Shown here: positions 3,025 through 22,722 of the stretch, piece by piece | Layout: every line of letters begins with the position of its first letter | Position numbering within the stretch: the stretch's first letter is position 1 | The notes under the pieces: generated by a model | What the model saw: the letters and a program-made list of their open reading frames with translations, nothing else | What the model was told of the DNA's origin: nothing | Database searches by the model: none | Assembly (NCBI GenBank): GCA_903858635.1 | Contig: CAIOJO010000442.1 | Span: forward strand, 1-64,000 | DNA length: 64,000 bases | Direction: 5' to 3' | Source: an uncultured Telmatospirillum sp. | GTDB taxonomy: Bacteria > Pseudomonadota > Alphaproteobacteria > Rhodospirillales > Magnetospirillaceae | Translations under genes and position numbers: made by a program

Positions 3025-5238
3025 ATGGCCTTCCATCGACCATCTTCCGTCTCCATGCTGGTGCGCCTGATGCTGCGGCTGATCGCGGTGGCCGCGTTCT
3101 TCGCTGCCGGGAGCGCCAAGGCGGACGTCAGCCATCTGTCCGATTTCCTTGACAAGACACCACTGCAGGAAATCGTTCCCGGGGCTGAACGCCTTGGGCC
3201 TGTCGATGGCAACCCGCCAGCCGCCCCCGCCTACCGGGGCGACAAGCTCGTCGGCTATGTTTTCCTGAACGCCGATGTGGTGAACTCCATCGGCTATTCG
3301 GGGCGGCCGATCGACGTCGTGGTCGGCATCGACACCACCGGCACGATCACCGGCGCCAAGCTGGTGCAGCACCACGAGCCGATCGTGCTGATCGGCATTC
3401 CCGAACAGAAGATCCGCGGCTACATCGATGGATTTGTCGGAAGCAACCCGGCCAGCGGCACCTTTCCGTCCGGCAAGAAGGGGCCCGACATCATAAGCGG
3501 CGCTACCGTCACCGTGATGGTGCTGGGCGACACCATCAGCAAATCGGCGATCCATATCGCCCGCTCGCGTAGCCTGGGCCCATTTGCCGGGCAGGCCGGA
3601 CAGGCCGCCGCGGCGCCGCGGCGTTCGATCGATTCGGGCCGGCAGGGCCGCGAGAGTTGGCAGCAGTTGCTGGCCGACGGCTCGGTGGCGCGGCTTCATC
3701 TTTCGGTCGCCGCCGTCAACAGGGCGTTTGCCCAGTCGGGCGATCCGCGGGCCGCCGAACGTCCGGAGCCCGGCCCGGACGACGATACGTTCATCGATCT
3801 CTACGTCGCCCTGGCCAGCGCCCCGGTGATCGGCCGTTCGTTGCTTGGCGACCGCGGCTACGACTACCTGCGCCAGCATCTGACCTCGGGGCAACAGGCC
3901 ATCGCGGTGATGGGCCTGGGGCGCTATTCGTTTCGCGGCTCCGGCTATGTCCGGGGCGGCATCTTTGATCGCATTCAGATCGTGCAAGAGGCGAACACCG
4001 TCCGCTTCCGCGACCGCAACTACGAGCGGCTGGGCACGGTGGCGGCCGAGGGGGCGCCGGCTTTTCCCGAAATAGGCTTGTTCACACTTCCCGAGAACAG
4101 CGACTTCGAACCCGGCGCCGCGTGGCGGTTGACCCTGCTGGTGCAGCGGGCCGTCGGGCCGCTGGACAAGGCGTTCCTCACGTTCGACCTGCCTTACTCC
4201 CTGCCCGACCAGGACCTTGCCGCCGCTGCGCCGGCCGCGACGGCCCAGCCGACCGTCGCAGAGTCTGCCGCCGCCGCGGCGGCGGCGGGCGAAACGCCGC
4301 TGTGGACGCGGGTCTGGAAGCAGCGCCGGATCGACATCGCCGTTCTCGGCAGTTCGCTGGTCGTGCTCACCCTCATCTTCTTCTTCCAGGACTGGCTGGT
4401 TCGCCGGCGGCGCCTGGCCTATTGGGTGCGCACCGGCTTTCTGCTGTTCACCCTGTTCTGGATCGGATGGTATGCCAACGCCCAGATCTCGGTGGTCAAC
4501 ATACTGGCGGTATCCAATGCCCTGGTGACCGGATTTCGCTGGGAATATTTCCTGATCGACCCGCCGATTTTCATCCTGTGGTGCGCCACGGCCGCGGCCC
4601 TGCTGTTCTGGGGGCGCGGCGCCTATTGCGGCTGGTTGTGCCCGTTCGGCGCCTTGCAGGAATTTGCCAACCGCATCGCCAAGCGGCTGCGCATTCCGCA
4701 ACTGAACATCCCCTGGGCGGTGCACGAGCGGCTTTGGCCGTTCAAATACATCATCTTCCTCGGCCTGTTCGCCTATTCGCTCTATTCCCTGGCGGACGCC
4801 GAGCGACTGTCCGAGATCGAGCCGTTCAAGACGGCGATCATCCTCAAATTCGTGCGGGCCTGGCCTTTCGTCCTCTACGCGCTGGCGTTGCTCGGCGCAT
4901 CGCTGTTCGTCGAGCGCGTGTTCTGCCGCTATCTGTGCCCGCTGGGCGCGGCGCTGGCCATTCCGGCCCGCATCCGGATGTTCGACTGGCTGAAACGCTA
5001 CAAGGAATGCGGCAGTCCCTGCCAGCGCTGCGCCAATGAATGCCCGGTGCAGTCGATCCATCCCGACGGACGGATCAACCCCAATGAGTGCATCTCCTGC
5101 ATGCATTGCCAGGAACTCTACTGGGATGACCATCTGTGCCCGGTGATGATCCAACGGCGGATCAAGAGGGAACGCCTTGCCACCATGTCGGCGCCTCCGC
5201 GCCCGGTTTTGCCCGTCAAACCCCAAGGAGAAGCGTGA
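3025..5238 (+). CDS. nosR: Nitrous oxide reductase regulatory/electron-transfer protein NosR
   Basis: 737-residue membrane flavo-iron-sulfur protein that feeds electrons to NosZ and is needed for nos expression. It has an N-terminal signal segment (to about residue 33), then a periplasmic FMN-binding domain with the flavinylation motif SGAT at 158-161 (Thr161 as covalent FMN site). Several membrane helices follow at roughly 435-625. The polyferredoxin part has CGWLCP (Cys535/539) and CRYLCP (Cys634/638), and the C-terminal ferredoxin cysteines are 662, 666, 669, 673, 689, 692, 695 and 704. The start at ATG 3025 is not backed by a good ribosome site; ATG 3055 would also leave a signal peptide. 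The stop TGA shares a base with the nosZ ATG, so translation is probably coupled. Confidence 0.96.
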
Positions 5239-7193
5239 TGACCGAGCACCCTAAAAGCGAAGGCCCGGAAGACGGCGAGGAGCAGGACAAGAAGCTATCG
5301 CGGCGCGCCGCCATGAAGCTGGCGGCCGGGGCCGGACTGGGCGCGGCGGCGGTAGGGATTGCAACCTTGGGCGCTCCCGCTGCAGCCCAGCAGCCTCAAG
5401 CGGCAAGCGGCACCGGCAACGCCAAGCTGGGCGAGGTGGCACCCGGCCAGCTCGACGATTACTACGTCTTCTCCTCCAGCGGACAGACGGGCGAGGTGCG
5501 GGTGTTCGGCATGCCGTCGATGCGCGAGTTGGTCCGCATTCCAGTGTTCAATCGCTGCAGCGCCACCGGCTGGGGACTGACCAACGAGAGCCTCAAGATC
5601 CTGACCCAGGACTTGCTGCCGGAAACCAAGGCGTTTTTGAAGAAGCGCGGCCTGGTGACATACCAGAATGGCGACGCCCACCATCCGCACGTGTCCTTCA
5701 CCAACGGCACCTATGACGGCCGCTATATCTTCATCAACGACAAGGCCAATACCCGCCTCGCCCGTATCCGCACCGACGTGATGAAATGCGACAGGATCAT
5801 CGAAATCCCCAACGCCCACGACGTCCATGGTATGCGGCCGCAAAAGTTCCCACGCACCGGCTATCTTTTCTGCAATGGCGAGCACGAGGCACCCATTCCC
5901 AATGACGGCCGCGACCTCGACAACCCCAAGGCCTACCGTGCCATCTTTTCGGCGGTCGACGGCGACAGCATGAAGGTGGCCTGGCAGGTCATCGTCGACG
6001 GCAATCTCGACAACGTCGACTGCGACTATCAGGGCAAATATGCGTTCTCCACCTGTTACAACTCGGAAATGGGCATGACCGGCCCGGACATGATGTCGGC
6101 CGAGCGCGACTGGGTGACCATTTTCCACATCAAGCGCATCGAAGACGCCGTGAAGGCCGGCAAGGCGACCGTGATGAACGGCGTCCCGGTGCTCGACGGC
6201 CGCCATGGCTCGCCTTATACCCGCTATGTGCCGATCGCCAACAATCCGCACGGCATCAACACCGCCCCCGACGGCATCCATGTGGCCATCAACGGAAAGC
6301 TGTCCCCCACCGTCTCGGTGATGGATGTCCGGCTGATCGACCCGCTGTTCGACAAGGACGCCGACCCGCGCAGCTGTATCGTCGCCGAGCCCGAGCTTGG
6401 CCTCGGGCCATTGCACACCTGTTACGACGGCAAGGGCAACGCTTTCACCACCCTGTTCATCGACAGCCAAGTGGTGATGTGGAACATCGACAAGGCGAAG
6501 CGGTCCTTCAAAGGCGAAAAGATCGATCCCATCGTCCAGAAGCTCGACGTGCACTACCAGCCGGGCCACAACCACAGTTCCATGGGCGAAACCAAGGAAG
6601 CGGACGGCAAATGGCTGATGAGCCTCAACAAATTTTCCAAGGACCGGTTCCTCAACGTGGGTCCGCTGAAGCCCAACAACGACCAACTGGTCTATATCGG
6701 CGACGGCAAGATGACCCTGGTTCATGACGGCGCGGCGTTCGCCGAACCGCACGACGTGACCATCGTCCGCGCCGACATCATCAAGCCGCGCAGCCTGTGG
6801 GACCGCGCCGACCCGATGTGGGAAGAGGCCCGCCAATGGGCCAAGAAGGACGGCATCGTCTTGGAAAACGATTGCAAGGTGATCCGCGATGGCAAGAAGG
6901 TCCGCGCCTACATGACCTCGCAGGCCCCGGTCTGGGGTCTCGACAAGATCGAGGTGAAGCAAGGCGACGAGGTCACCATCACCGTCACCAACATCGACGA
7001 CACCGAGAACGTCACGCACGGGCTCATCGTTTCCAACTATGGCATCTGCATGGAGATCAGCCCGCAGATGACCGCTTCGGTGACTTTCACCGCCGACCGA
7101 CCCGGCGTGCACTGGTACTATTGCACCTGGTTCTGCCACGCCCTGCACATGGAGATGCGGGGCCGCCTGCTGGTGGCGCCGACCAATGTCTGA
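5238..7193 (+). CDS. nosZ: Nitrous oxide reductase NosZ (clade I, Tat-exported)
   Basis: Reduces N2O to N2 in the periplasm, the last step of denitrification. 651 residues from the ATG that overlaps the nosR stop. The leader has the twin-arginine motif SRRAAMK followed by a hydrophobic stretch and an A-x-A site, which marks the clade I type. A seven-bladed propeller region follows with His-rich CuZ ligands, e.g. HPHVSF, NNPHGIN and GHNHSSMGE. The C-terminal cupredoxin domain holds the CuA site: His594, Cys629, Trp631, Cys633, His637 and Met640 ([12 protein letters not shown]). All catalytic metal ligands that I can recognise are in place, so the enzyme should be active. Product maturation depends on nosDFYL downstream. 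Confidence 0.98.
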
Positions 7194-7196
7194 GCG

Positions 7197-8465
7197 ATGC
7201 GCTGGGGCCGGTTGATCATCGGCGGAATGGCGGCGGCCTGTCTGGGCCGACCGCTGGCCGCGGCCGAGCTGGCGGTGTCGCCGGGCGGGGGAAAGCTCGC
7301 CCGCGCCGTCGCCGCCGCCCGGCCCGGCGATTCCCTGCGGCTCGCTCCGGGCCTCTATGACGGGCCGGTGGTGGTCGACAGGCCCTTGTCGATCGAAGGC
7401 CGGCCGGGCGTCGTCGTCGACGGCGGCGGCCACGGCACGGTGATCCGCATTACGGCGCGCGGCGTGGCAATCCGCGGGCTGACCGTGCGCAATTCGGGGA
7501 TCCGTCAGGAGGACATCGACAGCGGGATCTTTGCCGACAAGGGCGGCGACGACGCCGTGATCGAAGACAACCGGCTGGAGAACAATGAATTCGGCATCAG
7601 CCTGCGTGGCGCCGCCGGCGCCGTCGCCCGGCACAACGTCATCCTCGGCCGGCAGGACCTGCGGGTCAACGAACGGGGCGACGGTATCTCGGTGTGGAAC
7701 GCCACCGGCGCACGGGTCGAGGACAACGACGTTCGGTTCGGTCGCGACGGCATCCGCAGCACGTCGAGCCACGACAACGTCTTCTCGGGGAACCGCTTCC
7801 ACGAGTTGCGCTTCGCCGTCCATTACATGTGGACGGATGGCGGCACGGTCAGCGGCAATTTGTCGGAAGGCAACGAAGTCGGCTTCGCCATGATGTTCTC
7901 GCGCCATCTGACGATCGCCAACAATGTCTCGCGACGCGACCGTGACCATGGATTGCTGCTGAATTTCGTCAATGATGCGCGAATCGAAGGCAATGTTCTT
8001 TCGGATGGCGGCACCGAATGCGGCTTCATCTACAACGCGAACGACAATGTTCTGACGCGCAATTGGTTCGAGGGATGCCCGATCGGCATCCATTTCACCG
8101 CCGGCTCGGAACGCAATCGCTTCAGCGAAAACGCCTTCGTCAACAACCAGACCCAAGTGATGTATGTCGGCACGCGGTCTCTCGACTGGGCCACCGGCGG
8201 GCGCGGCAACTACTGGAGCGACAATCCGGCATTCGATCTGAACGGCGACGGCATCGCCGACATGCCTTATCGGCCCAACGATATCGTCGACCGCATCGTG
8301 TGGACGGTGCCCTTGGCCAAGGTTCTGCTCAACAGTCCGGCGTTGCAGGTGGTGCGCTGGGCTCAGGCCGAATTCCCGGCGGTCACGCCGGGCGGCATCA
8401 TCGATTCGGCACCCCTGATGCAGCCGCCGCCACGACCGGCCCTGGCTACGGAAACCGCGCCATGA
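7197..8465 (+). CDS. nosD: Copper-site assembly protein NosD
   Basis: 422 residues with an N-terminal signal peptide (cut near AAA-E, about residue 23). It then forms a right-handed parallel beta-helix of repeated N-rich turns (NRLENNEFGIS, NLSEGNEVGF and similar), the carbohydrate-binding/CASH fold of the NosD family. NosD works in the periplasm with the NosFY transporter in assembling the CuZ cluster of NosZ. The ATG lies three bases after the nosZ stop, and the stop overlaps the nosF ATG (ATGA at 8462-8465). Confidence 0.95.
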   Translation: MRWGRLIIGGMAAACLGRPLAAAELAVSPGGGKLARAVAAARPGDSLRLAPGLYDGPVVVDRPLSIEGRPGVVVDGGGHGTVIRITARGVAIRGLTVRNSGIRQEDIDSGIFADKGGDDAVIEDNRLENNEFGISLRGAAGAVARHNVILGRQDLRVNERGDGISVWNATGARVEDNDVRFGRDGIRSTSSHDNVFSGNRFHELRFAVHYMWTDGGTVSGNLSEGNEVGFAMMFSRHLTIANNVSRRDRDHGLLLNFVNDARIEGNVLSDGGTECGFIYNANDNVLTRNWFEGCPIGIHFTAGSERNRFSENAFVNNQTQVMYVGTRSLDWATGGRGNYWSDNPAFDLNGDGIADMPYRPNDIVDRIVWTVPLAKVLLNSPALQVVRWAQAEFPAVTPGGIIDSAPLMQPPPRPALATETAP

Positions 8466-9382
8466 ATGCGGTCGAGCTGTGCGGCGTCGGCAAACGATAC
8501 GGTCGCCAGTGGGCGGTTCGCGAGGTGACATTGTCCTTGCGCGCCGGCGAACGTCTCGCGCTGCTTGGCCATAATGGCGCCGGCAAGACGACGCTGATGA
8601 AGCTCATGCTCGGCTTGACTCGGGCCGACAGGGGGACCGTGGGCGTGCTGGGCGGTGCGCCGGGCGGCGCCGGTTCGCCGTCCCGCCAAGCCATAGGCTT
8701 CCTGCCTGAGAACGTGGCCTTCCACGACGCCATGACGGCCCGCGAAACCTTGCGCTTTTACGCCCGCCTCAAACGCCGTCCTGAAGCGGAATGTCTGGAA
8801 TTGCTCGATCGGGTCGGCCTCGCCGCGGCGGCCGACAACCGCATCGGCACGTTTTCCAAAGGAATGCGCCAGCGCCTCGGGCTGGCCCAGGCCCTGCTGG
8901 GCAATCCCCGACTGTTGCTGCTCGACGAACCGACCACCGGCCTCGACCCGGCCCTGCGACAAGCCTTCTATGAGATCATCGGCCAGCTCGCATCGAACGG
9001 CACGGCGGTGTTGCTGTCGTCGCATCTGTTGACCGAATTGGAGGAGCGGACCGATCGGATCGCCGTGATGTACCAGGGCCGGCTGGCGGCGGCCGGCACC
9101 CTGGATCAATTGCGCGTCGCCGCCGGGCTACCGGTGGAGATTCGCCTCCGCATCGCCGACGGTCGGCGGGTGGCGGTGGCGGACGCCTTGGCCTTGCATT
9201 CTCCGCGCTCGGTCGGGCTGCAGGAGCTGACGCTGAGTTGCCCTGTCGCCGATAAGATGACCGTCCTGAGGGCCGTTGCCGCCCTCGGTGACGATGTCCG
9301 CGACCTGGAGATGACCCTGCCCGGTCTCGACGCGATTTACGCCAGCTTCACCGGCGCACCCGCCACATTGGAAGCGGCATGA
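8462..9382 (+). CDS. nosF: ABC transporter ATP-binding protein NosF
   Basis: 306-residue ATPase of the NosFY exporter needed for NosZ copper-site maturation. It shows Walker A GHNGAGKTT (about 36-44), the signature sequence FSKGMRQRLG, Walker B LLLLDEPTTGLDP and the switch histidine in SSHLLTELEE. The true start is the ATG at 8462, which overlaps the nosD stop; the open frame extends upstream but that part overlaps nosD out of frame. The gene ends in a four-base overlap with nosY. Confidence 0.95.
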   Translation: MNAVELCGVGKRYGRQWAVREVTLSLRAGERLALLGHNGAGKTTLMKLMLGLTRADRGTVGVLGGAPGGAGSPSRQAIGFLPENVAFHDAMTARETLRFYARLKRRPEAECLELLDRVGLAAAADNRIGTFSKGMRQRLGLAQALLGNPRLLLLDEPTTGLDPALRQAFYEIIGQLASNGTAVLLSSHLLTELEERTDRIAVMYQGRLAAAGTLDQLRVAAGLPVEIRLRIADGRRVAVADALALHSPRSVGLQELTLSCPVADKMTVLRAVAALGDDVRDLEMTLPGLDAIYASFTGAPATLEAA

Positions 9383-10209
9383 GTGCGGTCCTGATCATCG
9401 CCGGCAAGGAAATACGTGACGGCGTACGCAATCGCTGGGCCGTCACCGCCACCGTCGTGCTGGCCGGCCTGGCGCTCGCGCTCGCCTTCCTGGGCAGCGC
9501 CCCGACCGGCCATGTCGGTGTACCGCCGCTGGCCGTCACGGTGGTCAGCCTGACCAGCCTGACCGTGCTCCTGGTGCCGTTGATCGCCATCATCCTGTCG
9601 TATGATGCTCTGGTCGGGGAAATCGAACGCGGCACCATGCTGCTGCTGCTGGCCTATCCGGTGCGCCACTGGGAGGTCGTCGCCGGCAAGTTTCTCGGGC
9701 ATACGGCGCTGCTGGGCTGTGCCACTGTCATCGGCTACGGCGCCGCCGGCGTCGTCATTGCCGCCACAGCGAAAGGGAGCACGGCCGGGCAGTGGCCGGC
9801 ATTTTCCGTCCTGATCGCCACCTCGGTGGGGCTGGGGGCGGCGTTCCTTGCGCTCGGCTACCTTATCAGCAGCACGGTGCGTGAGCGCGCCACCGCCGCC
9901 GGGATCGCGGTTGGCGTCTGGCTGCTGCTGGTGCTGCTATTCGATATGGGGCTTCTCGGGTTTCTGGCGGCGACGCAAGGGCGTGGGATTTCCGCCTCGC
10001 TGTTCCGGTGGATCTTGATGCTCGACCCCGCCGACATCTTCCGCCTTATCAACCTGGCAAGTTTCACCGACGTCCGCAAATACTCCGGCATGGCAGGATT
10101 GTCCGCTCAGGCGCAGGTTCCGCCCGGGACCTTGGCAGCAGCGCTGCTGGCCTGGATCGCGGCGCCGCTCGGACTGACCATCGCCATCTTTGGGCGGAGG
10201 CAGCTATGA
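9379..10209 (+). CDS. nosY: ABC transporter permease NosY
   Basis: 276 residues with about six membrane segments (first at roughly 22-42, last at the C-terminus) and the ABC-2 permease family pattern, including the amphipathic 'AGKEIRDGVRNRWA' start. It pairs with NosF to form the membrane transporter that acts in NosZ copper-centre biogenesis, probably by exporting a sulfur-containing compound (family knowledge). It overlaps both neighbours by four bases (ATGA), which indicates tight translational coupling. Confidence 0.94.
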   Translation: MSAVLIIAGKEIRDGVRNRWAVTATVVLAGLALALAFLGSAPTGHVGVPPLAVTVVSLTSLTVLLVPLIAIILSYDALVGEIERGTMLLLLAYPVRHWEVVAGKFLGHTALLGCATVIGYGAAGVVIAATAKGSTAGQWPAFSVLIATSVGLGAAFLALGYLISSTVRERATAAGIAVGVWLLLVLLFDMGLLGFLAATQGRGISASLFRWILMLDPADIFRLINLASFTDVRKYSGMAGLSAQAQVPPGTLAAALLAWIAAPLGLTIAIFGRRQL

Positions 10210-14706: not shown

Positions 14707-15654
14707 ATGCCGCCTTTCGACATCGAGGGGGGGCTTGGGTTCGCCTTCGTGCGCGGCATTTCGGTGGCTGCCTGCCTGTCGGTACTGGGGGCGCTGGTCT
14801 TCCGCCTGGTGGTCGCGCCGCCGGTGCTGGCCGGCATGAAGCCTTCGGCGGCTGCCGAACAGGATCGGCGTTGGTTGCGGCTGCTATGGGGGAGCGTGGC
14901 CGCTGCACTCCTGGGCGCGGGCGGGTGGCTGGGGCTGGAGTCGGGCGCCATGGCCGGGGCGACCGGGATCGCAGACAGGCTGGCCGCCGTTCCGCTGGTC
15001 GTCCTCAACAGCCGATTCGGCATGGTCCTGGTGATCCGGCTCGGCTTGCTGGCAGCGGTGCCGCTGGCCATCGGCCGAAGCCTGCGACCGCCCCGCCTGG
15101 CGATCGCCGCGGCGCTCGCCGCCGCCGCCGCCGCTTCGCAGGCCTCCCTCGGGCATGCCGCGAGTATCGGGCATGGGTTCGAATGGCTGGCCCTGTCGAC
15201 GACGCTCCATATTCTGGCCGCCGCCATCTGGCTGGGGCAGCTGCCGCCGTTGTGGATCTTCCTGGCCGACGCTCCGCCGGCCGCCGCCGGGCTCGCCCTG
15301 CGACGTTTCTCCCGATTGGGCCTGACCTGCGTCATTCTGCTGGCGGCGACCGCTTCGGCCCAGGGATGGGGACTCGTCGGCGGGGTGGCCGGTTTTGTCG
15401 GGACCGCCTATGGATGGACCGCCCTGGCCAAGCTGCTGCTATTCGGCATCCTGTTGGCCATTGCGGCGATCAATCGCTTCACCTTCATGCCGCGATTGGC
15501 CTCGGGCGTTGCCGCGACCGCCCGACGGGCGCTGTGCCGAAGCGTTCTCGTCGAGGCGATCCTCGGTCTCCTGGTCATCCTGGCGGCCGGCATCCTCACC
15601 AGCCTGCCGCCCGGCATGGATGCGGCACAAGGCCTCCGCTGGCCTTACCGGTAA
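14707..15654 (+). CDS. copD: Copper uptake membrane protein CopD
   Basis: 315 residues with about eight predicted membrane helices and the CopD family pattern (conserved His/Trp segments such as HGFEWLALSTTLHILAAAIWLGQLP). CopD is thought to take copper from CopC across the inner membrane. The start is one base after the copC stop, so the two are co-translated. The stop overlaps the convergent small gene at 15645-15872 by about ten bases. Together with the Fnr-type box at 12827 this indicates copper import under denitrifying conditions. Confidence 0.9.
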   Translation: MPPFDIEGGLGFAFVRGISVAACLSVLGALVFRLVVAPPVLAGMKPSAAAEQDRRWLRLLWGSVAAALLGAGGWLGLESGAMAGATGIADRLAAVPLVVLNSRFGMVLVIRLGLLAAVPLAIGRSLRPPRLAIAAALAAAAAASQASLGHAASIGHGFEWLALSTTLHILAAAIWLGQLPPLWIFLADAPPAAAGLALRRFSRLGLTCVILLAATASAQGWGLVGGVAGFVGTAYGWTALAKLLLFGILLAIAAINRFTFMPRLASGVAATARRALCRSVLVEAILGLLVILAAGILTSLPPGMDAAQGLRWPYR

Positions 15655-15872
15655 CGGTAGGCGATGCCGCGGCTCACTCGGGCGACCTCACGCCGTTCGA
15701 GTTTCGTCCCGGTGCGGATTTCCAGTTCGGCCAGCAGGGCGGCGAGTTCGCCCCCCTCCAGCACCATGTTCAAGGCGAGATTGATCGCCTCGTCGCGCAG
15801 TTTATGCGCCTGGCGATCGGGCACCGCCGCCAAGACGTCTTCAACCAGGGCAGCAACGGAATGGACCGGCAT
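15645..15872 (-). CDS. Small helical protein at the end of a protease cluster
   Basis: 75 residues from an ATG at 15872 preceded by GAGGT. The sequence (LVEDVLAAVPDRQAHKL, then ALNMVLEGGELAALLAELE and RREVARVSRGIAYRYR) predicts two amphipathic helices and a basic tail; no signal peptide. Not recognised. It is the last gene downstream of the HtrA-like protease (gap 127 bases, same strand), so it may belong to that operon as a small adaptor or substrate; this is a guess from position only. It overlaps the 3' end of copD. Confidence 0.5.
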   Translation of the reverse strand: MPVHSVAALVEDVLAAVPDRQAHKLRDEAINLALNMVLEGGELAALLAELEIRTGTKLERREVARVSRGIAYRYR

Positions 15873-15999
15873 CGGGGACCTCGCGCTTGCGTGAGTCCGA
15901 TGATGTCGGTGAACGAGCCGTTTGGGCCAGTGCGCGATAGGGAAGCGCCATAAGTGTGCGCCGCTCACTCGGCCGGCCCCCTCAGCCGCACCGGGGTCG

Positions 16000-16986
16000 T
16001 CAGCCGGCCACCGGCCGGCGCTCGACCGGAATGATATCGATGGCGGTGACCCGGCCATTCTGGATGACGCTGAGCGTCGTCGGCCGGCCGATGCGATCGG
16101 CCGCGAGCAGGCGGATCAGATCGTCGGCCCCGTTGACCGTCACGCCGTCGACACTCAAGATGATGTCGCCGACCCGCAAATCGCTGTGCGCGGCCGGGCT
16201 GTCCGGTTCGATCTCGCCGATGCGGACCGCCCGCGGGCCCGAGTTCGTCACATTGGCCAGGCGGCGGGGCAGCGGAATGGTCTGCGCGGCGATGCCCAAT
16301 TGGGCGCGCCGCACGCGGCCATAGGCGATGAACTCGCCGATGACGAACATCGCGGTATTGCTGGACACCGCGAAGCACAGCCCCTGGGCCCCACCGATCA
16401 TCGCCGTGTTGATCCCCACCACCTCACCGGCACCGGAAACCAGGGGGCCACCCGAATTGCCGGGATTGAGCGCCGCGTCGGTCTGGATCACGTCGTCGAT
16501 CAAGCGGCCGCTTTGCGACCGCAGCGATCGGCCCAGCGCCGATACGACGCCGGCGGTGACCGTCGATTCGAAGCCGAGCGGATTGCCGATGGCGATCACC
16601 AGATGGCCGCGCCGGATCTGCTTCGAGTCGCCCAGCGGCGCGGCCGCAACGCCGCGCGGCAGCTCGGCCCGCAGCAAGGCGAGATCGGTATCGGGGTCGT
16701 CGCCCAGCACCAGCGCCTCGGTGTCACCGCCTTCGGCGAAGGCCAGGCGGACCCGCTTGGTGGCCGCGACGACATGGCTATTGGTGAGCACCAGGCCGTC
16801 ATCGGCAATGACCACGCCCGAGCCGACACCGCCGCGGCGCTTGTCCCGGCTGTCGACCCGAACCACCGCCGGGCCGATCCGTTCGGCCACCCCGGCCACC
16901 GTGCGCGAGTAGGCGTCGAGCGGATGCTCCGCGGCCGGCGCGGTGTCGTTCTCGGCTTCCAAATTGGCGGAGTCGGTATCGTACAT
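16000..16986 (-). CDS. Cytoplasmic HtrA-like serine protease with PDZ domain
   Basis: 328 residues. Trypsin-like S1C domain at about 35-210 with an intact triad: His71 (TNSHVV), Asp101 (DPDTDLALL) and Ser178 (NPGNSGGPL). A PDZ domain follows at about 230-320 (GEIEPDSPAAHSDLRVGDIILSVDG). Unlike DegP/DegS there is no signal peptide or membrane anchor, so it should act in the cytoplasm. I start at the ATG at 16986, which has TTAGGA ahead of it; the frame is open further up but overlaps the LuxR gene. It is ten bases after the LuxR-type regulator and in one transcription unit with a protease-like protein that lacks the triad (17389-18273). Confidence 0.85.
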   Translation of the reverse strand: MYDTDSANLEAENDTAPAAEHPLDAYSRTVAGVAERIGPAVVRVDSRDKRRGGVGSGVVIADDGLVLTNSHVVAATKRVRLAFAEGGDTEALVLGDDPDTDLALLRAELPRGVAAAPLGDSKQIRRGHLVIAIGNPLGFESTVTAGVVSALGRSLRSQSGRLIDDVIQTDAALNPGNSGGPLVSGAGEVVGINTAMIGGAQGLCFAVSSNTAMFVIGEFIAYGRVRRAQLGIAAQTIPLPRRLANVTNSGPRAVRIGEIEPDSPAAHSDLRVGDIILSVDGVTVNGADDLIRLLAADRIGRPTTLSVIQNGRVTAIDIIPVERRPVAG

Positions 16987-16996
16987 GGCAAGATTC

Positions 16997-17392
16997 CTAA
17001 AGATCGATGACCCCCAAGCGGGCGGCATGGGTGACGGCGTCGGTCCGTCCGCTGGCGTCGAGTTTGTCCAGCAGCTGGCCGACATGGAATTTGGCGGTAT
17101 GCACCGAGATGCGCAGCTGGCGGGCGATGGCCTTGTTCGAGGCGCCTTCGGCCAGCAGTTTCAGGACCTCGAGTTCGCGCGGCGTCAAAGGCGCCTCGAG
17201 ATCCGCCTCGAATCCGGCGGGGGCGGCAGCGACCAGCGCCAGATCGGCCCTTTCCCCCGCCTCGGCCAGCCGCAGCCCCGGGACATCGGCCAGCAGGGCA
17301 GCCGCCCGCTCGGCCAGCAGCGGGTCGTCCACATGCAACGCGATGACCAGGCTGTCGGAGGGCAGGCTGTCTGGGGGGCGGTCGTGGCTCAA
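16997..17392 (-). CDS. LuxR-type transcriptional regulator
   Basis: 131 residues. The C-terminal half is a standard LuxR/GerE helix-turn-helix (PLTPRELEVLKLLAEGASNK onward, about 68-125, with the SVHTAKFHVGQLLDKL recognition region). The N-terminal 65 residues look like a shortened receiver-like fold without the phospho-acceptor Asp pocket, so a phosphorelay partner is not evident. It is sandwiched between a pseudo-protease (four-base overlap) and an active protease, and probably regulates this cluster and the divergent Q-rich operon. The target site is unknown; the palindrome at 18312-18329 is a candidate. Confidence 0.82.
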   Translation of the reverse strand: MSHDRPPDSLPSDSLVIALHVDDPLLAERAAALLADVPGLRLAEAGERADLALVAAAPAGFEADLEAPLTPRELEVLKLLAEGASNKAIARQLRISVHTAKFHVGQLLDKLDASGRTDAVTHAARLGVIDL

Positions 17393-18273
17393 GCCGGTGG
17401 CCTCTCGCCGATGGTGAGGGTCAGGTCGACCGGGTTGCCGCCGCGGCGCAGGCCGAGGGCGACGCTGCGGCCGACGCTGTCGGGACCGAGGGTCCGCAGC
17501 AGCGCGCCGACGCGCGGCAGGGGCTGGCCATCCCAGGTGACGATCACATCGCCCTGGCAGACGCCGGCGGTGGCCCCGGGACCATCCTTGGCGACGCTGA
17601 GAATCATCGCCCCCATGGCGCCCTCGTCGGCGACGCGGACCGGCTGCAGCCCCAGCCCGAGATAGCCGCGCGGAATGCGACCATGGCGTTCCAGCAGGGC
17701 GGCGACCCGTTCGATGGTGGTGGCCGGTATCATCAGCGTGCGGCGGCGCGGCCCCAACACCGCCATGCCGAGGGCACGGCCGGCGGCATCCACCACAAGG
17801 CCGCCCTCGGCCTGACGCCGCAGGCGCAGATCGAGCTCGATCCGCAGGTCGATGGCGCCGCCCCGCATCGAATACCAGGACGGCCCCACAGTGGCCACGC
17901 TGCCGCAGGCGGACAGCGCCGCGCCGCCGCTGGCACCGACGGAAAGGGCCAACGCCCCGGCGCGTATGGGGGGATAAGTGAAGGGCACGGCGGCCAGCGC
18001 CGCCCCCTCGACCCGCAGCAACGCGATGTCGGTGGTCGGATCGCGGCCGAGGATGGTGGCGGGACGGCTGTCGCCGCCGGCCAGGACCACGGCGACCTCC
18101 CCTTCCTCGGCCAGCGCTTCATCGGCGGTGACGATCAGGTCGGGCCGCCAGGCAAAGCCGCTGGACAAGGCGCGATGGGACTGGATGCCGACCACGCTGG
18201 GGAAGGTCGTGGCGACGATGTCGGCGAGGGCGGCCGAAATGATTTCAAGGGACGGGGGGGAGTTATCGGACAT
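17389..18273 (-). CDS. Pseudo-protease: trypsin-like fold plus PDZ, catalytic His and Ser lost
   Basis: 294 residues that align over their length with the HtrA-like protein encoded downstream. The catalytic positions differ: where that protein has TNSHVV this one has TADEAL (Glu52 in the His place), and NSGGPLV is AEGGLVV (Glu156 in the Ser place). Only the Asp is kept (PTTDIALLRV, Asp82). A PDZ domain follows at about 200-285 (ILSVAKDGPGATAGVCQGDVI). It cannot be a normal serine protease; a binding or regulatory role for PDZ-recognised C-termini is more likely. No signal peptide. First gene of the leftward operon; its end overlaps the LuxR-type gene by four bases. Confidence 0.8.
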   Translation of the reverse strand: MSDNSPPSLEIISAALADIVATTFPSVVGIQSHRALSSGFAWRPDLIVTADEALAEEGEVAVVLAGGDSRPATILGRDPTTDIALLRVEGAALAAVPFTYPPIRAGALALSVGASGGAALSACGSVATVGPSWYSMRGGAIDLRIELDLRLRRQAEGGLVVDAAGRALGMAVLGPRRRTLMIPATTIERVAALLERHGRIPRGYLGLGLQPVRVADEGAMGAMILSVAKDGPGATAGVCQGDVIVTWDGQPLPRVGALLRTLGPDSVGRSVALGLRRGGNPVDLTLTIGERPPA

Positions 18274-18640
18274 GTGGGCTCTCCTTTGTGTCCCTCATGT
18301 GCGTCTCGCCAGGCAGTGGCGCCACTGCCCAGGTGGGCAGGCCGCTCGCCCGGCCCCCATGTCCAGGCGGAGCTTGCTCCCTCCTCCTTATCGCTCCCGC
18401 CCCAAAGTGGGCACGGAAACGCTCTGGAGGGGGAGGGCAGACCTTTGTCTTAATCAATCTGTTATGGGGGTGCTAGGTCGGCTTGGCCGTTCGCTCGATC
18501 AAGGATCGAACGGGGGGTAGCGACGACATCTTGGCGATTTGCGGTAGGAGGGGACGCCGGCCGGATGACGTACTGAACTTGGTCTTTCTACCTCGACATC
18601 ATCTGGTCCGGTGGCCTCTTCCGAGTAATGGAGGAGATGG
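18274..18640. promoter_or_regulatory. Divergent promoter region with an 18-base perfect palindrome
   Basis: 367 bases between the pseudo-protease and the Q-rich protein gene, with no gene seen in it. GGCAGTGGCGCCACTGCC at 18312-18329 is a perfect palindrome 39 bases upstream of the pseudo-protease start, fitting an operator for a dimeric regulator. A second inverted repeat, CGATC-AAG-GATCG, lies at about 18495-18507. The rightward gene has GGAGGAG about six bases before its ATG. No sure -35/-10 pair was found. Confidence 0.5.
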
Positions 18641-19342
18641 ATGTATTATTCCGAGACACAACAGCAGAATCCCCAGCAATGGGGTGCTTTTGCCCCACAG
18701 CACCAGCAAGGGCTGGGCTTCGGTCAGGGCCAGGCGACGCTGGGCGGGTTGCAGGGTTTGCAGGGTCTAGGACAGGCGGCATTCGGCCAGACTCAGCAGT
18801 TCGGCACGCCGCAGCAGGCCTATGGCTGGGCCCAGACCCGGCAGTTGAGCCAGCAGGACGTCGGTGACGTGGTCCGCCAATTGGTGCCGCTGTTGCCGCA
18901 GATTCTTGCCCAGGCCCAGCAACAGCCGCAGGCCGCCTACGGCTATGGCTGGTCGCAGCAGCGTCAGCTCAGTCCACAGGACGTCAACGAAGTGGTCCGC
19001 CAGATCCTGCCCATCGTGCCGCAGATCGTCAGCCTGTTGCAGGGGCAGCCGCAGATGCAGGCGGCGGCCTACGGTCAGCAGCAGCCTCAGCAGGGGCTGT
19101 TCGGCACCCAGCAGTACAATCCGTTCGGTACCCAACAGCAGAACCCCTTCGCCATCCAGCAAACCAATCCCTTCGCCATGCAGCAGGGGATGCCGCAGAT
19201 GCAGGCGGCCTTCGGCGGTCAGTCGATCCACCAGCAACGCCAATTGACCCAGCAGGACGTGAGCGAGGTAGTGCGCCAACTGGTCAACGTCATTCCGCAA
19301 GTGATCGGCAGCCTCCAGGTTGCCTCCCAGCAACGGATCTAG
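18641..19342 (+). CDS. Glutamine-rich repeat protein with NPF motifs, unknown function
   Basis: 233 residues, of which 66 are Gln (28%); there is no Lys and no Cys. Three copies of a 20-28 residue unit are visible at about 66-91, 107-134 and 199-226, with the core RQL[ST]xQDVx[ED]VVRQ followed by hydrophobic residues and PQ[IV]. Each should form an amphipathic helix. Between them lie low-complexity Gln/Gly/Ala/Tyr/Phe linkers, including three NPF motifs at 160-178. No signal peptide or membrane segment. The composition resembles prion-like or condensate-forming scaffolds (inference). The ribosome site GGAGGAG is strong. It is first in an operon with a helical protein and a subtilisin, divergent from the HtrA-like genes. 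Not recognised as a known family. Confidence 0.8.
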   Translation: MYYSETQQQNPQQWGAFAPQHQQGLGFGQGQATLGGLQGLQGLGQAAFGQTQQFGTPQQAYGWAQTRQLSQQDVGDVVRQLVPLLPQILAQAQQQPQAAYGYGWSQQRQLSPQDVNEVVRQILPIVPQIVSLLQGQPQMQAAAYGQQQPQQGLFGTQQYNPFGTQQQNPFAIQQTNPFAMQQGMPQMQAAFGGQSIHQQRQLTQQDVSEVVRQLVNVIPQVIGSLQVASQQRI

Positions 19343-19413
19343 CGGTCCCCCGAACAACGGCCGGGGACCCGTCTCTCGGTGGGCCCCCGGCCTGCCTCTC
19401 ATGGAGCATTGCG

Positions 19414-19866
19414 ATGGCCAACCTCGATCCCGGCGCTGTGACGCCGCAGCAGAATGTCGATCCCCAGGACGCCCAGCTGATGGCCAACCTGTTGGGCAGC
19501 TTGCTGCCGCTGCTGCAGCGGGTCCAACTCACCGGCTGGACGCCGGAGCAGGCGCCGCCCATGGCCGATAGCCGGCAGCTCGATCAGCGGGCGGCGGTCG
19601 CCCTGGCCGAGGACATCACCGCCGATGCGCTCTGTCGTCTCGCCGCCTATTGCGAACGCTATGCCGGGGGCCGGCAATTTCCGGGGCTCGACGCCTGCCT
19701 CGGCCTCGTCACCCAGGCGGCGCGTTGCTTTGCCGCGGCCGACTACAACGGCGCCATGGCGCTGGTATGGCAGGCCTACCGGCTGATCGCCGCGGCACGG
19801 GCCGCCACGCCCGAATTGCCGCCATTGCGCGAAATCCCGGCCGGCGCCCCGGCCACCTCGCATTAG
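19414..19866 (+). CDS. Helical protein sharing the Q-rich protein's repeat unit, unknown function
   Basis: 150 residues, no leader. The N-terminus (VDPQDAQLMANLLGSLLPLLQRV, about 15-37) looks like one more copy of the helical unit of the preceding protein (SPQDVNEVVRQILPIVPQIV). The rest is an alpha-helical domain at about 55-135 (ALAEDITADALCRLAAYCER, CLGLVTQAARCFAAADYNGA) with a TPR-like look but no clear match. It stands 71 bases after the Q-rich gene and 13 bases before the subtilisin gene, so co-expression is likely. The shared motif suggests that it docks onto the Q-rich protein; this is inference. Confidence 0.7.
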   Translation: MANLDPGAVTPQQNVDPQDAQLMANLLGSLLPLLQRVQLTGWTPEQAPPMADSRQLDQRAAVALAEDITADALCRLAAYCERYAGGRQFPGLDACLGLVTQAARCFAAADYNGAMALVWQAYRLIAAARAATPELPPLREIPAGAPATSH

Positions 19867-19879
19867 AGGAGAACGGCTG

Positions 19880-21661
19880 ATGAGTCCAAAGTCGGAAGAA
19901 GGCCGGTCCGCCGAGCCCCCCTCCCGCTCCGCCGGCAAGGCCACGGATCCGGCCCGCGGCGAGGGCGCCGTCAAGCTGACGCCGCGCCCGGGCCTCTACA
20001 TGATCACCTGTCCCGGTGCGGCGGCCAAGGAACTGAGCGAGCGCCTGAAACGCACCGACGGCATCGAAGTGGTGCGGACCATCCCCGCCCAGGCAAAGGG
20101 CGGTGAACCGGTGGTGGTCGCCGGCATGGTGGCGAATGTCGCCGCGGCATTGCGCAACGCGCCGGGCCCGGCGCTGATCATCGAGCCCGACCACAGTCTG
20201 ATCGCCGCCACTTGGTCGATGGCCGATCCCGCCGTGACAACCACGGTCGGGCCGGGCTTCACCACCACCATCCAGGTGGTCGGCGCCAAGGACGAACCGG
20301 TGGCGCGGGCCGAGGTGCATCTGCTCGGCCGCAGCTGGGCGGCGCAGGGCATCACCGGGGCCGACGGGAAGGTCCAACTGACCCTGTTCGGGGAGAGCCC
20401 CGACAGCGTCAGCGCCCTGCTGGTCAAGCCGCGAACCGGCTATTGGAGCCTGTGGACCGAGGCGCCGGCCGTCGATGCCGACGCGGTGCAGCAAGTGACC
20501 CTGCGGCCCTTGCCCGCCGACGCCCCCGGCTGGGGCGCCAAGGCCATGCAGTTCGACCAGCTGCCCGCCCGCTGTCGCGGCAAGGGCGTGAAGATCGCCC
20601 TGATCGACACCGGGGCGGCGGTCAGCCACCGGCAATTGGCCAAGCTGAGCCAGGGCATGGACGTCGCCGGCGGCTCGGCAAAGGCCTGGGCACAAGACCC
20701 CGCCGGGCACGGCACCCTGTCGGCCGGCATCGTCGCCGCCTGGTCCGAGGACGGCGGGCCGCCGGGCTATGCGCCGGAAGCCGAAACGCATATCTGCCGC
20801 GTCCCGCCGGACGGGCGCTGCAGCGACCTGGTGGTCGCCCTCGACTATTGCCTGGACGCCGGCATCGATGTCGTCGATCTCGGCTTTTGTTGCCGGCACG
20901 GCTCGATGATCGTCGAACGGCGCATCGAGCTGGCCAAACGAATGGGCATGGCGGTGGTCGCACCAGCCGGCAATGGCGGGGACTCGGTGCAGTTTCCGGC
21001 GTCGTCGCCGCATGTGCTGGCGGTCGGCGCGATCGGCAAGCAAGGGGCGGCTCCGCTCGACAGTCCGCATGCCGACGGCGCGGCGGCGGCAATCCTGTCC
21101 GACGGCTATTTCTCGCCGGCCTTCTCGTCGGCCGGGCCGGAGGTCGATGTCTGCGCCCCCGCTGTGGCCGTTCTGTGCTGCCAATCCCCCGACGGCTATG
21201 CCGCGGTCGACGGAACCTCGGTGGCGGCGGCCCATGTGGCGGCGCTGGCGGCGCTGGTGCTGGCCCATCATCCGGATTTCCGGCAGGCCTTCGCCGGGCG
21301 CAACAGCCAGAGGGTCGAGCGCCTGTTCCAGATCATCAAGGAAACGGCGCAGCCGGTGGCCCTCGATGCCCGCCGGGTGGGCGCCGGAGTGCCCGATGCG
21401 GCACGCGCCCTTGGATTGACGGTGCCGGCGAATGCCCCGGCGGGACGCGCCGGCAAGGACACCCAGGGCAGCCTGGAGGCGATGCGCGCCGCGTTCCAGC
21501 TGGCCGGACTCACCCCTTCCGCCCCCGGCCGGGTGGCCCGCGGTCCGGCGATGGTGAGCCGGGCGCCGCTGACTCCGGCCGGCTTTGCCCCGGGGGCGAC
21601 CGCGAGCCTGGCCGAATTGCGGGCCGCCATGGCTGAAGCCGGCCTGCGGCCCCTGCACTGA
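19880..21661 (+). CDS. Subtilisin-like serine protease (S8) without signal peptide
   Basis: 593 residues. The N-terminal 30 are polar and charged, not a secretion signal. Residues about 130-185 (VVGAKDEPVARAEVHLLG...GITGADGKVQLTL) look like a carboxypeptidase-regulatory/CnaB-type beta-sandwich. The protease domain has the full set: Asp243 (IDTG), His277 (GHGT), Asn365 (PAGNGG) and Ser447 (GTSVAAAHVA). After about 520 the tail carries two short related segments, LEAMRAAFQLAGLTP and LAELRAAMAEAGLRP, which may be docking or processing signals. Third gene of the Q-rich operon; a strong terminator follows. A cytoplasmic subtilisin beside a scaffold-like protein is unusual. Protease assignment sure, target unknown. 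Confidence 0.9.
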   Translation: MSPKSEEGRSAEPPSRSAGKATDPARGEGAVKLTPRPGLYMITCPGAAAKELSERLKRTDGIEVVRTIPAQAKGGEPVVVAGMVANVAAALRNAPGPALIIEPDHSLIAATWSMADPAVTTTVGPGFTTTIQVVGAKDEPVARAEVHLLGRSWAAQGITGADGKVQLTLFGESPDSVSALLVKPRTGYWSLWTEAPAVDADAVQQVTLRPLPADAPGWGAKAMQFDQLPARCRGKGVKIALIDTGAAVSHRQLAKLSQGMDVAGGSAKAWAQDPAGHGTLSAGIVAAWSEDGGPPGYAPEAETHICRVPPDGRCSDLVVALDYCLDAGIDVVDLGFCCRHGSMIVERRIELAKRMGMAVVAPAGNGGDSVQFPASSPHVLAVGAIGKQGAAPLDSPHADGAAAAILSDGYFSPAFSSAGPEVDVCAPAVAVLCCQSPDGYAAVDGTSVAAAHVAALAALVLAHHPDFRQAFAGRNSQRVERLFQIIKETAQPVALDARRVGAGVPDAARALGLTVPANAPAGRAGKDTQGSLEAMRAAFQLAGLTPSAPGRVARGPAMVSRAPLTPAGFAPGATASLAELRAAMAEAGLRPLH

Positions 21662-21689
21662 GCTTTCGCCTCGATCTCGAGCGACTCGC

Positions 21690-21721
21690 GCGCCGAAGGA
21701 TAACTTCGGCGCCTTTTCTTT
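21690..21721 (+). terminator. Rho-independent terminator after the subtilisin gene
   Basis: GCGCCGAAG at 21690-21698, loop GATAA, then the exact complement CTTCGGCGC at 21704-21712, followed by CTTTTCTTT. A nine-pair stem with a T-rich tail is a good intrinsic terminator and closes the Q-rich/subtilisin operon 28 bases after its stop. The M48 gene that follows therefore probably has its own promoter in 21722-21846. Confidence 0.85.
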
Positions 21722-21846
21722 GCCGAATCGGCGCATCCCCCCAATTTGGATTAACGTTGTATTGAGAATTACTACAGTTATACTAGCGCCGGGTGCAATC
21801 GAGGTAGATCGATTCCCCCCGTCATGCGGTTGCTGGGGATTGCCAA

Positions 21847-22722
21847 TTGCCACACCGGGCCGGCGCGCGTCGAAGCGAATGGACCATCGACCTGGACGGC
21901 CAGGCATTCGACGATCTGCGGCTACCGCATCACCACCCGCTCCATGTATTCAATTCGCGCCGCTCCGGAATGGTAATCAACGGCATGCTGCTGCTGGTCG
22001 CCCTGTGCGGCTGGGTGGTCGGCGGCGAGGAGGGGGCGCATTGGGCGGTCAGCGGCGGCACCGGGACCACGCCGGCATCCATTTCGCCGGAGACCATGCT
22101 CCGCCAATACGGTGCTCATCGACTTACTCCGCAGATGTGGCCGGCGTTGTTCGACCAGCTGCAGGGAATGAGCCGGCGGGCCGGCCTGCCCCGGCCGCCG
22201 GAGCTCTATTACCTGCCCGATCCGCACAGCATGAACGCCTACGCCCTGGGCGGCCCGGAGCATTCCGCCGTCACCCTGACCGAGGGGCTGTTGCGCGGCA
22301 TGACCTTGGGCGAAATCGTCGGCATCCTGGCCCATGAGGTAGCCCATATCAGCAATAACGACGGCTGGGCGATGGCCCTGGCGGCGGGTCTCTATCGGAC
22401 CACCGCCCTGACGGCGCTGATGGGCGCCGGCCAGCGGCGGGACGGACCATTGGCGTTGCTGCTGTCGAGCGCGCCGATGGTCGGCCAGATGCTGCATATG
22501 GCGCTGTCGCGTATCCGCGAGTTCGACGCCGATGCGGTGGCCCTGGATCTGGTCGACGACCCGCATGCCTTCCTGACGGCCCTGCACAAGCTCGAGCACC
22601 ACCACAACGGCGACCGGCGGCGGCAGCCGGCGCCGCCTTCGGACGACATGCTGCGGTTCCTGCGCAGCCATCCCGAAACCTGGGAACGGGTCGGCACCCT
22701 GCTGCGCCGGTCGTGGCGTTAG
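21847..22722 (+). CDS. M48-family zinc metalloprotease, membrane-anchored
   Basis: 291 residues from a TTG start; no ATG or GTG fits upstream in frame, and the alternative ATG at 21970 would remove the polar N-terminus. One hydrophobic segment at about 42-60 (MVINGMLLLVALCGWVV), then the M48 (HtpX-like) domain. The zinc site is HEVAH (His163, Glu164, His167) with the third ligand Glu225 in REFDADA. Unlike HtpX only one strong N-terminal helix is seen. The gene follows the protease/Q-rich cluster on the same strand but behind a terminator. It may be a quality-control protease; link to the cluster is by position only. Confidence 0.82.
   Translation: MPHRAGARRSEWTIDLDGQAFDDLRLPHHHPLHVFNSRRSGMVINGMLLLVALCGWVVGGEEGAHWAVSGGTGTTPASISPETMLRQYGAHRLTPQMWPALFDQLQGMSRRAGLPRPPELYYLPDPHSMNAYALGGPEHSAVTLTEGLLRGMTLGEIVGILAHEVAHISNNDGWAMALAAGLYRTTALTALMGAGQRRDGPLALLLSSAPMVGQMLHMALSRIREFDADAVALDLVDDPHAFLTALHKLEHHHNGDRRRQPAPPSDDMLRFLRSHPETWERVGTLLRRSWR

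Follow-up and report, generated by a model that had tools for sequence, protein, structure and literature searches.

Do eight adjacent genes of an uncultured Telmatospirillum sp., among them several proteases and a glutamine-rich (Q-rich) repeat protein, belong to one system? They lie at positions 15645-22722 of a stretch of 64,000 nucleotides (GenBank assembly GCA_903858635.1, contig CAIOJO010000442.1, positions 1 to 64,000 of the forward strand), hereafter the window, and an earlier note on this DNA had proposed a joint function for them. A check of open reading frames in the window recovered all eight genes at the places that the note had given. The leftward (minus-strand) set comprises, from left to right, a 75-residue helical protein, an HtrA protease, a short LuxR-type protein, and an HtrA-like protein; across a 367-bp divergent gap, the rightward (plus-strand) set comprises the Q-rich protein, its helical partner (working name helP), an S8 subtilase, and an M48 metalloprotease (Table 1). 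Among the window proteins Pfam recognizes HtrA-like (Trypsin_2 plus PDZ), GerE/LuxR, a second Trypsin_2 plus PDZ, Peptidase_S8, and Peptidase_M48, and gives no match for the 75-residue protein or helP. The eight genes are two conserved modules and two neighbors. Module B consists of Q-rich, helP, S8, and M48, and module A of the HtrA-like protein, a pseudoprotease (pseudo-HtrA), and the LuxR protein, which lacks a recognized receiver domain; HtrA and the 75-residue protein are the neighbors. We tentatively read module B as a conserved cytoplasmic scaffold-protease system and module A beside it as an autoregulated sensor, a reading that we favor with rather less than even confidence.

The earlier note would have judged the grouping accidental had homologs of the Q-rich protein and helP never stood beside these proteases in other genomes. 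Instead, M48, Q-rich, and helP occur together in all 28 genomes with a convincing Q-rich or helP match (a set that is not a census), and S8 joins them in 26. The first 26 genomes, run with one script, gave M48, Q-rich, and helP in 26/26 and S8 in 24/26; two more, found when helP alone was searched for in 391 genomes sampled from the Bradyrhizobium family (5/391 positive, three of them already known), match all four genes. The 26-genome set joins the window and five genomes of a Bradyrhizobium genus sample to 20 loci from a Q-rich alignment scan of a one-genome-per-species collection: two congeners, 16 genomes titled Bradyrhizobium, and two alphaproteobacterial metagenome-assembled genomes (MAGs), the MAGs having been drawn as part of the Bradyrhizobium genus sample. 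That scan relied on two peptide patterns and missed at least seven module genomes found later, some of which may lie outside the collection. No S8 ortholog was found elsewhere in the two genomes that lack the gene at module B; all that turned up there were weaker subtilase matches.

Module B is rare. It is found in 15 of 146 genomes of the Bradyrhizobium genus sample, in 2 of 385 genomes of a class sample (this genome and one weak match), and in 1 of 398 genomes of a phylum sample (this genome); the Q-rich match of genome G131 (8e-4) lies inside a 1053-residue frame. Of 119 related genomes, just three have Q-rich and helP: this genome and two congeners, both of which carry all four module B genes together. 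No relatives of the Q-rich protein appeared in a scan of viral contigs, nor did a tblastn search of plasmids return any match to it. A Q-rich match in G118 was rejected as spurious; it is antisense to another, probably inositol-monophosphatase-like gene and contains an internal stop.

Gene order differs between lineages: this genome and its congeners have Q-rich, helP, S8, M48, and the Bradyrhizobium loci have M48, Q-rich, helP, S8, with M48 ∼0.5 to 0.65 kb upstream of Q-rich rather than after S8. The single rightward operon of the earlier note is doubtful, because a stem-loop with a T-run (21690-21712) parts S8 from M48 and because M48 stands upstream of Q-rich in Bradyrhizobium. Terminator-like sites in the region are not above chance (2 observed, 2.8 expected), a promoter scan of two regions gave no sigma-70-like site, and Rfam returned nothing at cutoff in the window, locus L038, or locus L046. 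The leftward operon fared better, as coupling there is real: the end of pseudo-HtrA overlaps the start of the LuxR gene by 4 bp (17389-17392), and LuxR and HtrA are 10 bp apart if HtrA starts at the ATG at 16986 (its open frame extends back to 17085).

The Q-rich protein combines low complexity with strict conservation. Its three helical motifs, in short form RQL[ST]xQDVxxVVRQ[LI]..PQ, are kept in all 28 module genomes, one of the two later genomes having a Val-to-Met change; in 26/26 orthologs they follow the consensus R[QM]L[ST]xQ[DE]Vxx[VI][VT]RQ[LI] and then a PQ-containing second half. All 26 orthologs counted have no Lys, no Cys, and exactly seven Arg, and the linkers of each together hold a single charged residue (147 to 199 linker residues, counting each motif as 27 residues and excluding the C-terminal five). 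The C terminus is also conserved and hydrophobic (QQR-(x)-I/M in 26/26), and an AlphaFold2 (AF2) model places helices at the motifs only. By eye, the leader directly 5′ of the Q-rich start is nearly invariant in Bradyrhizobium-type loci (L029, L031-L047, L099-L103), reading GGGCTGAGGGCA.C..CCATCGCAAGGAG; it is slightly shorter in a few loci, the DNA farther upstream is variable, and no such leader was seen in the window or its congeners. This leader could be a translational control element.

A composition-based gene caller favored an antisense frame (18767-19402) over Q-rich, which counts against the Q-rich frame. We accept the latter because conservation across genera overrules the gene caller. 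More generally, the module B frames are not chance frames, since helP follows Q-rich in 28/28 genomes and ratios of nonsynonymous to synonymous substitution (dN/dS) are low. Median pairwise values for 14 Bradyrhizobium copies, from a home-made Nei-Gojobori count over 91 nonindependent pairs per gene, were 0.158 for Q-rich, 0.21 for helP, 0.24 for S8, and 0.27 for M48, so that Q-rich has the lowest ratio of the four despite its low complexity.

Database searches gave these two proteins no name. The Q-rich protein had no match above cutoff in Pfam or NCBIfam and only weak ones in PHROGs and PADLOC; its one Pfam match, to YcgL (E 0.0099), and its one PADLOC match, to Cas11e (E 0.027 in the window and 0.00046 in L046), included no passing stretch. 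PADLOC, with no match at all for helP, gave no convincing match of the orphan proteins to a known antiphage defense system, and sequence searches of the PDB with Q-rich and helP returned nothing better than E 0.39. The AF2 model of helP shows four helices (mean predicted local distance difference test [pLDDT] score, 69.7), and a fold search with it against the PDB listed 84 matches up to E 10, the best at E 2.0 and none at 0.001.

The two proteases of module B retain their catalytic residues. In S8, Asp, His, and Ser are intact in 24/24 copies read, and the same copies all end, after a variable linker, in the tail [ED]L[RK]xAMxxAG[LI]. In NCBIfam the S8 catalytic domain best matches the type VII secretion mycosin TIGR03921, below cutoff (109.8 bits against an equivalog cutoff of 278.75 bits); unlike such mycosins, S8 appears leaderless, and no secretion gene belongs to the conserved set. 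Leaders were judged by a crude 19-residue hydropathy scan, in which neither a mycosin-type leader peptide nor a C-terminal membrane anchor was seen in S8: hydropathy is at most 0.1 in the first 45 residues, and the overall maximum (1.69, residue 443) falls within the catalytic domain. By the same scan HtrA, Q-rich, and helP have no typical leader; pseudo-HtrA is mildly hydrophobic around residue 12 (1.65), and M48 has a single strongly hydrophobic stretch (2.03). In PADLOC, S8 matched a generic subtilase model (1.1e-16). The S8 of G1105 (L132:528-2284) matches as two abutting pieces and may be disrupted. M48 has the zinc site HEVAH in the window, and HExxH is kept in 26/26; its best score against the HtpX equivalog, 106 bits, falls short of the 369-bit cutoff. 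The window M48 is shorter than those of the two congeners (L016 and L017), by ∼55 N-terminal residues.

A rival reading of module B is a processing system, in which S8 (and M48) would cut the Q-rich protein between its motifs and release three helical peptides as signals, membrane-active agents, or inhibitors. Kexin-type proteases cut polyprotein precursors, and the Q-rich protein does hold three similar helical units of ∼27 residues between conserved linkers ending GQ..RQL[ST]; the next-best NCBIfam subtilase matches of S8 are, moreover, the maturation proteases QhpE and PatA, though far below cutoff. We nevertheless consider processing unlikely. The units are not interchangeable, each being conserved as itself with its own consensus (15, 15, and 9 versions of units 1, 2, and 3 in 26 copies), the conserved set includes no exporter or modifying enzyme, and two genomes retain Q-rich without S8.

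Module B might also be a general stress-proteostasis cassette. At the Bradyrhizobium locus L029, the stretch from 4 to 7 kb upstream of M48 contains a DUF892 gene (Pfam) and genes that appear, from their protein starts, to be Hsp20-like and Lon-like. The transmissible locus of stress tolerance (tLST) also joins a DegP-like protease to an HtpX-like M48 one (PMC8290217). However, the tLST as described in the excerpted text of that paper carries chaperone, disaggregase, FtsH, and redox genes and names no S8, Q-rich, or helP member, and chaperone, disaggregase, FtsH, and thioredoxin are all missing from the conserved set here. Since the genes flanking module B also vary among annotated lineages, we think a stress cassette improbable.

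A scaffold with attached proteases is instead the most economical reading of module B, given the composition of the Q-rich protein, its invariant motifs, and its constant partnership. The Q-rich protein would be a disordered, almost uncharged chain with three helical "sticker" motifs that forms, with helP, a multivalent assembly or condensate in the cytoplasm. S8 would dock through its conserved C-terminal tail, membrane-bound M48 would be a second effector protease, and both may concentrate on, or trim, the Q-rich/helP assembly under some stress. The earlier note had likewise supposed that the Q-rich protein assembles in the cytoplasm, an idea with which its extreme composition is compatible. 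The absence of Lys might shield such a scaffold from lysine-directed modification or cleavage.

Module A pairs a pseudoprotease with a DNA-binding protein. As the earlier note had observed, this protease-like protein lacks the catalytic His and Ser: it has a trypsin-fold domain (PF13365, 63.8 bits) followed by a PDZ domain (PF13180, 39.1 bits), and its triad columns in the window read Glu, Asp, Glu. Of 49 pseudo-HtrA sequences, 48 (window included) have Glu or Gln at the His position and likewise at the Ser position, and 4 of the 49 have Asn in place of Asp. The one sequence that keeps both His and Ser, from Paraburkholderia, has an annotated response regulator as its neighbor, which suggests that pseudo-HtrA may descend from an active ancestor. 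Pseudo-HtrA matches were found in 124 of 146 genomes of the Bradyrhizobium genus sample (E 1e-40; two of the matches are fragments); the substitutions were read in the sequences of the loci read rather than across all 124 genomes. A LuxR-like frame adjoins pseudo-HtrA in 47/47 pseudo-HtrA loci read, a count that excludes five loci of the same script with ordinary HtrA-type matches only. GerE (PF00196) covers residues 68 to 123 of the LuxR protein, and no receiver family matched it in Pfam up to E 1. NarL/FixJ-type response regulators share the GerE DNA-binding domain; here, however, there is no receiver match and the gene overlaps that of a pseudoprotease.

Upstream of pseudo-HtrA lies a conserved, operator-like dyad. 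In the window it lies upstream of both divergent genes, at a distance of 52 bases from pseudo-HtrA and 300 from Q-rich. The pattern C[CT]T[GC]nCCA-N3-GGn[CT]AGT occurs in 44 of 55 pseudo-HtrA upstream sequences, window included, 63 to 86 bases before the inferred start. With five duplicate loci removed it fits 41/50, and six more have a related palindrome, ACTGGCCA-N2-CGGCCAGT, so that 47 of 50 distinct loci, again with the window, have a CTGsCC-type dyad; the remaining three, of a divergent clade, have a different, CCGGTC-type dyad. A matrix that had Bradyrhizobium sites, but not the window site, as its training set ranks the window dyad best in the 64 kb (12.8 bits; next best, 6.9; training sites, 26 to 38), and none of 416 other 367-bp stretches reaches its score. 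A second perfect palindrome, GGCAGTGGCGCCACTGCC (window 18312-18329), partly overlaps the dyad.

Because catalysis has been lost and PDZ kept, the gene overlaps one for a receiver-less DNA-binding protein, and the dyad is conserved, module A suggests a ligand-controlled, autoregulated switch. The LuxR protein would bind the dyad as its candidate operator, and the PDZ domain of pseudo-HtrA would bind exposed C termini and so alter LuxR activity there. Module A may be secondarily tied to module B, and the divergent layout in this genome could place module B under its control.

Several results weigh against the combined reading of a scaffold-protease system with a sensor beside it. S8 is not essential to module B, because it is missing from 2 of the 28 genomes. 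The mean pLDDT of the Q-rich model is only 46, and the idea that the helP N terminus is a copy of the Q-rich motif was rejected, the real helP having scored no better than shuffled sequences. Cooccurrence of the modules in the Bradyrhizobium genus sample is not significant (module A in 15/15 genomes with module B and in 109/131 without it; Fisher P 0.13), and in the 15 B-positive genomes the modules lie on different contigs (8 genomes) or are separated by 0.8 to 4.4 Mb (5 genomes) or 5.7 kb (2 genomes). Pseudo-HtrA is absent from the two congeners with module B (E 1e-25). Only two lineages link the modules: that of the window and that of MAGs G514 and G515, near-identical sisters with a convergent arrangement 5.7 kb apart. 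Control of module B by module A would be at most local to this genome, because no dyad is found at module B in Bradyrhizobium, where dyad control was rejected: the best module B match (10.1 bits, L047) falls within the coding sequence of Q-rich.

The G514/G515 linkage most simply arose apart from that of the window, because the neighbors of these MAGs, G545 in the S8 tree and G540 in the pseudo-HtrA tree, both have modules A and B unlinked. Two such linkages are suggestive of joint function, not proof of it. In these MAGs a mechanosensitive-channel gene separates S8 from the LuxR/pseudo-HtrA pair (L046:13274-15634, by Pfam; L045:7073-9457, with a like start). That A-B linkage recurs in a different layout also favors the original proposal of a single eight-gene protease system, in which the PDZ proteins would sense or process the Q-rich assembly, as do the divergent layout with a single intergenic region and the Q-rich C terminus, which could bind a PDZ domain. 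We regard that proposal as very doubtful, however. Pseudo-HtrA is common in Bradyrhizobium genomes that lack module B, as counted above, the two congeners have module B without A, and HtrA and the 75-residue protein follow neither module in the loci examined.

For the scaffold-protease system with its neighboring sensor, a bolder form can be stated, to which we give a low probability. Module B would be a new, protein-based proteolytic body, in which a lysine-free scaffold with three fixed stickers and helP gathers S8 by its tail near membrane M48; module A would be a pseudoprotease PDZ sensor that directly controls a receiver-less LuxR protein and here reads the Q-rich C terminus.

To our knowledge, the nearest known arrangements of similar proteases are MamE/MamO of magnetotactic bacteria and the tLST, and neither fits. 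MamE/MamO resembles the present case in that an active and a repurposed HtrA-type protein serve one process, as set out in the excerpted text (PLoS Biol 2016, PMC4794232); these are magnetosome proteins in another setting, whereas the pseudoprotease of module A has a LuxR protein as its partner. In NCBIfam, pseudo-HtrA scored only 26 bits against the MamE model, and no MamO match was listed. McdB-like, Gln-rich or prion-like condensate proteins (eLife 2023, PMC10554743, excerpted text) offer a likeness of theme, drawn without sequence comparison, in low complexity and phase separation in bacteria; unlike them, the Q-rich protein has almost charge-free linkers and its gene is paired with two protease genes. 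No paper on module A or B was found in the one open-access library searched, which does not establish absence from print. As judged from sequence, module B appears to be new, no named system having matched it in the libraries and papers searched.

The conserved, unnamed Q-rich and helP families and the pseudoprotease/LuxR pair now have a genetic context and sequence rules, and the ortholog sets come from named Bradyrhizobium species. If a Q-rich body does organize proteases, it would be a new bacterial way of localizing proteolysis; the pseudoprotease pair, if rightly read, would link a PDZ peptide sensor directly to a transcription factor.

Table 1. Features of the protease region, in window coordinates
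Feature	Position	Strand	Remarks
75-aa helical protein	15645..15872	-	neighbor, outside both conserved modules
HtrA protease	16000..16986	-	leaderless, intact triad + PDZ; neighbor, outside both conserved modules
Short LuxR/GerE protein	16997..17392	-	overlaps pseudo-HtrA by 4 bp; no recognized receiver domain
Pseudo-HtrA	17389..18273	-	trypsin-fold + PDZ; catalytic His to Glu, Ser to Glu
Operator-like perfect dyad	18325..18340	.	CTGCCCA-GG-TGGGCAG; conserved, upstream of pseudo-HtrA
Q-rich low-complexity protein	18641..19342	+	233 aa; three helical motifs in uncharged Q/G/A/P/Y/F linkers
Q-rich helical motif 1	18839..18919	+	residues 67-93
Q-rich helical motif 2	18962..19042	+	residues 108-134
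Q-rich helical motif 3	19238..19318	+	residues 200-226
helP	19414..19866	+	150 aa, four predicted helices; 28/28 module genomes
S8 subtilase	19880..21661	+	leaderless; Pfam PF00082; ∼225-residue N-terminal extension; conserved C-terminal tail
Intrinsic-terminator-like stem-loop	21690..21712	+	S8/M48 intergenic; 9-bp GC-rich stem, T-run
M48 (HtpX-like) membrane metalloprotease	21847..22722	+	PF01435, 90 bits; start uncertain, ATG at 21808

The two neighbors are less tightly bound to the region than the earlier note had supposed when it counted them as members of the system. Its description of HtrA itself was accurate: the protease keeps His, Asp, and Ser at the catalytic columns, followed by PDZ, and the leader scan was blank. 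Its score against degP_htrA_DO is 264.9 bits (cutoff, 416.2). Of 611 matched records, three rhizobial plasmid loci were read, and in these, relatives with 54 to 57% identity stand without the pseudo-HtrA/LuxR pair. Apart from this genome, 4 of 118 related genomes encode relatives of the 75-residue protein, and at none of the five matches does a module A or B gene lie within ∼1.5 kb. On the outside, the eight genes are flanked by genes for a CopD-type copper protein and for a methionine-synthase-like one (Pfam/NCBIfam), and farther left, at 5136-10209, is what we presume, from the protein starts, to be a nitrous oxide reductase region.

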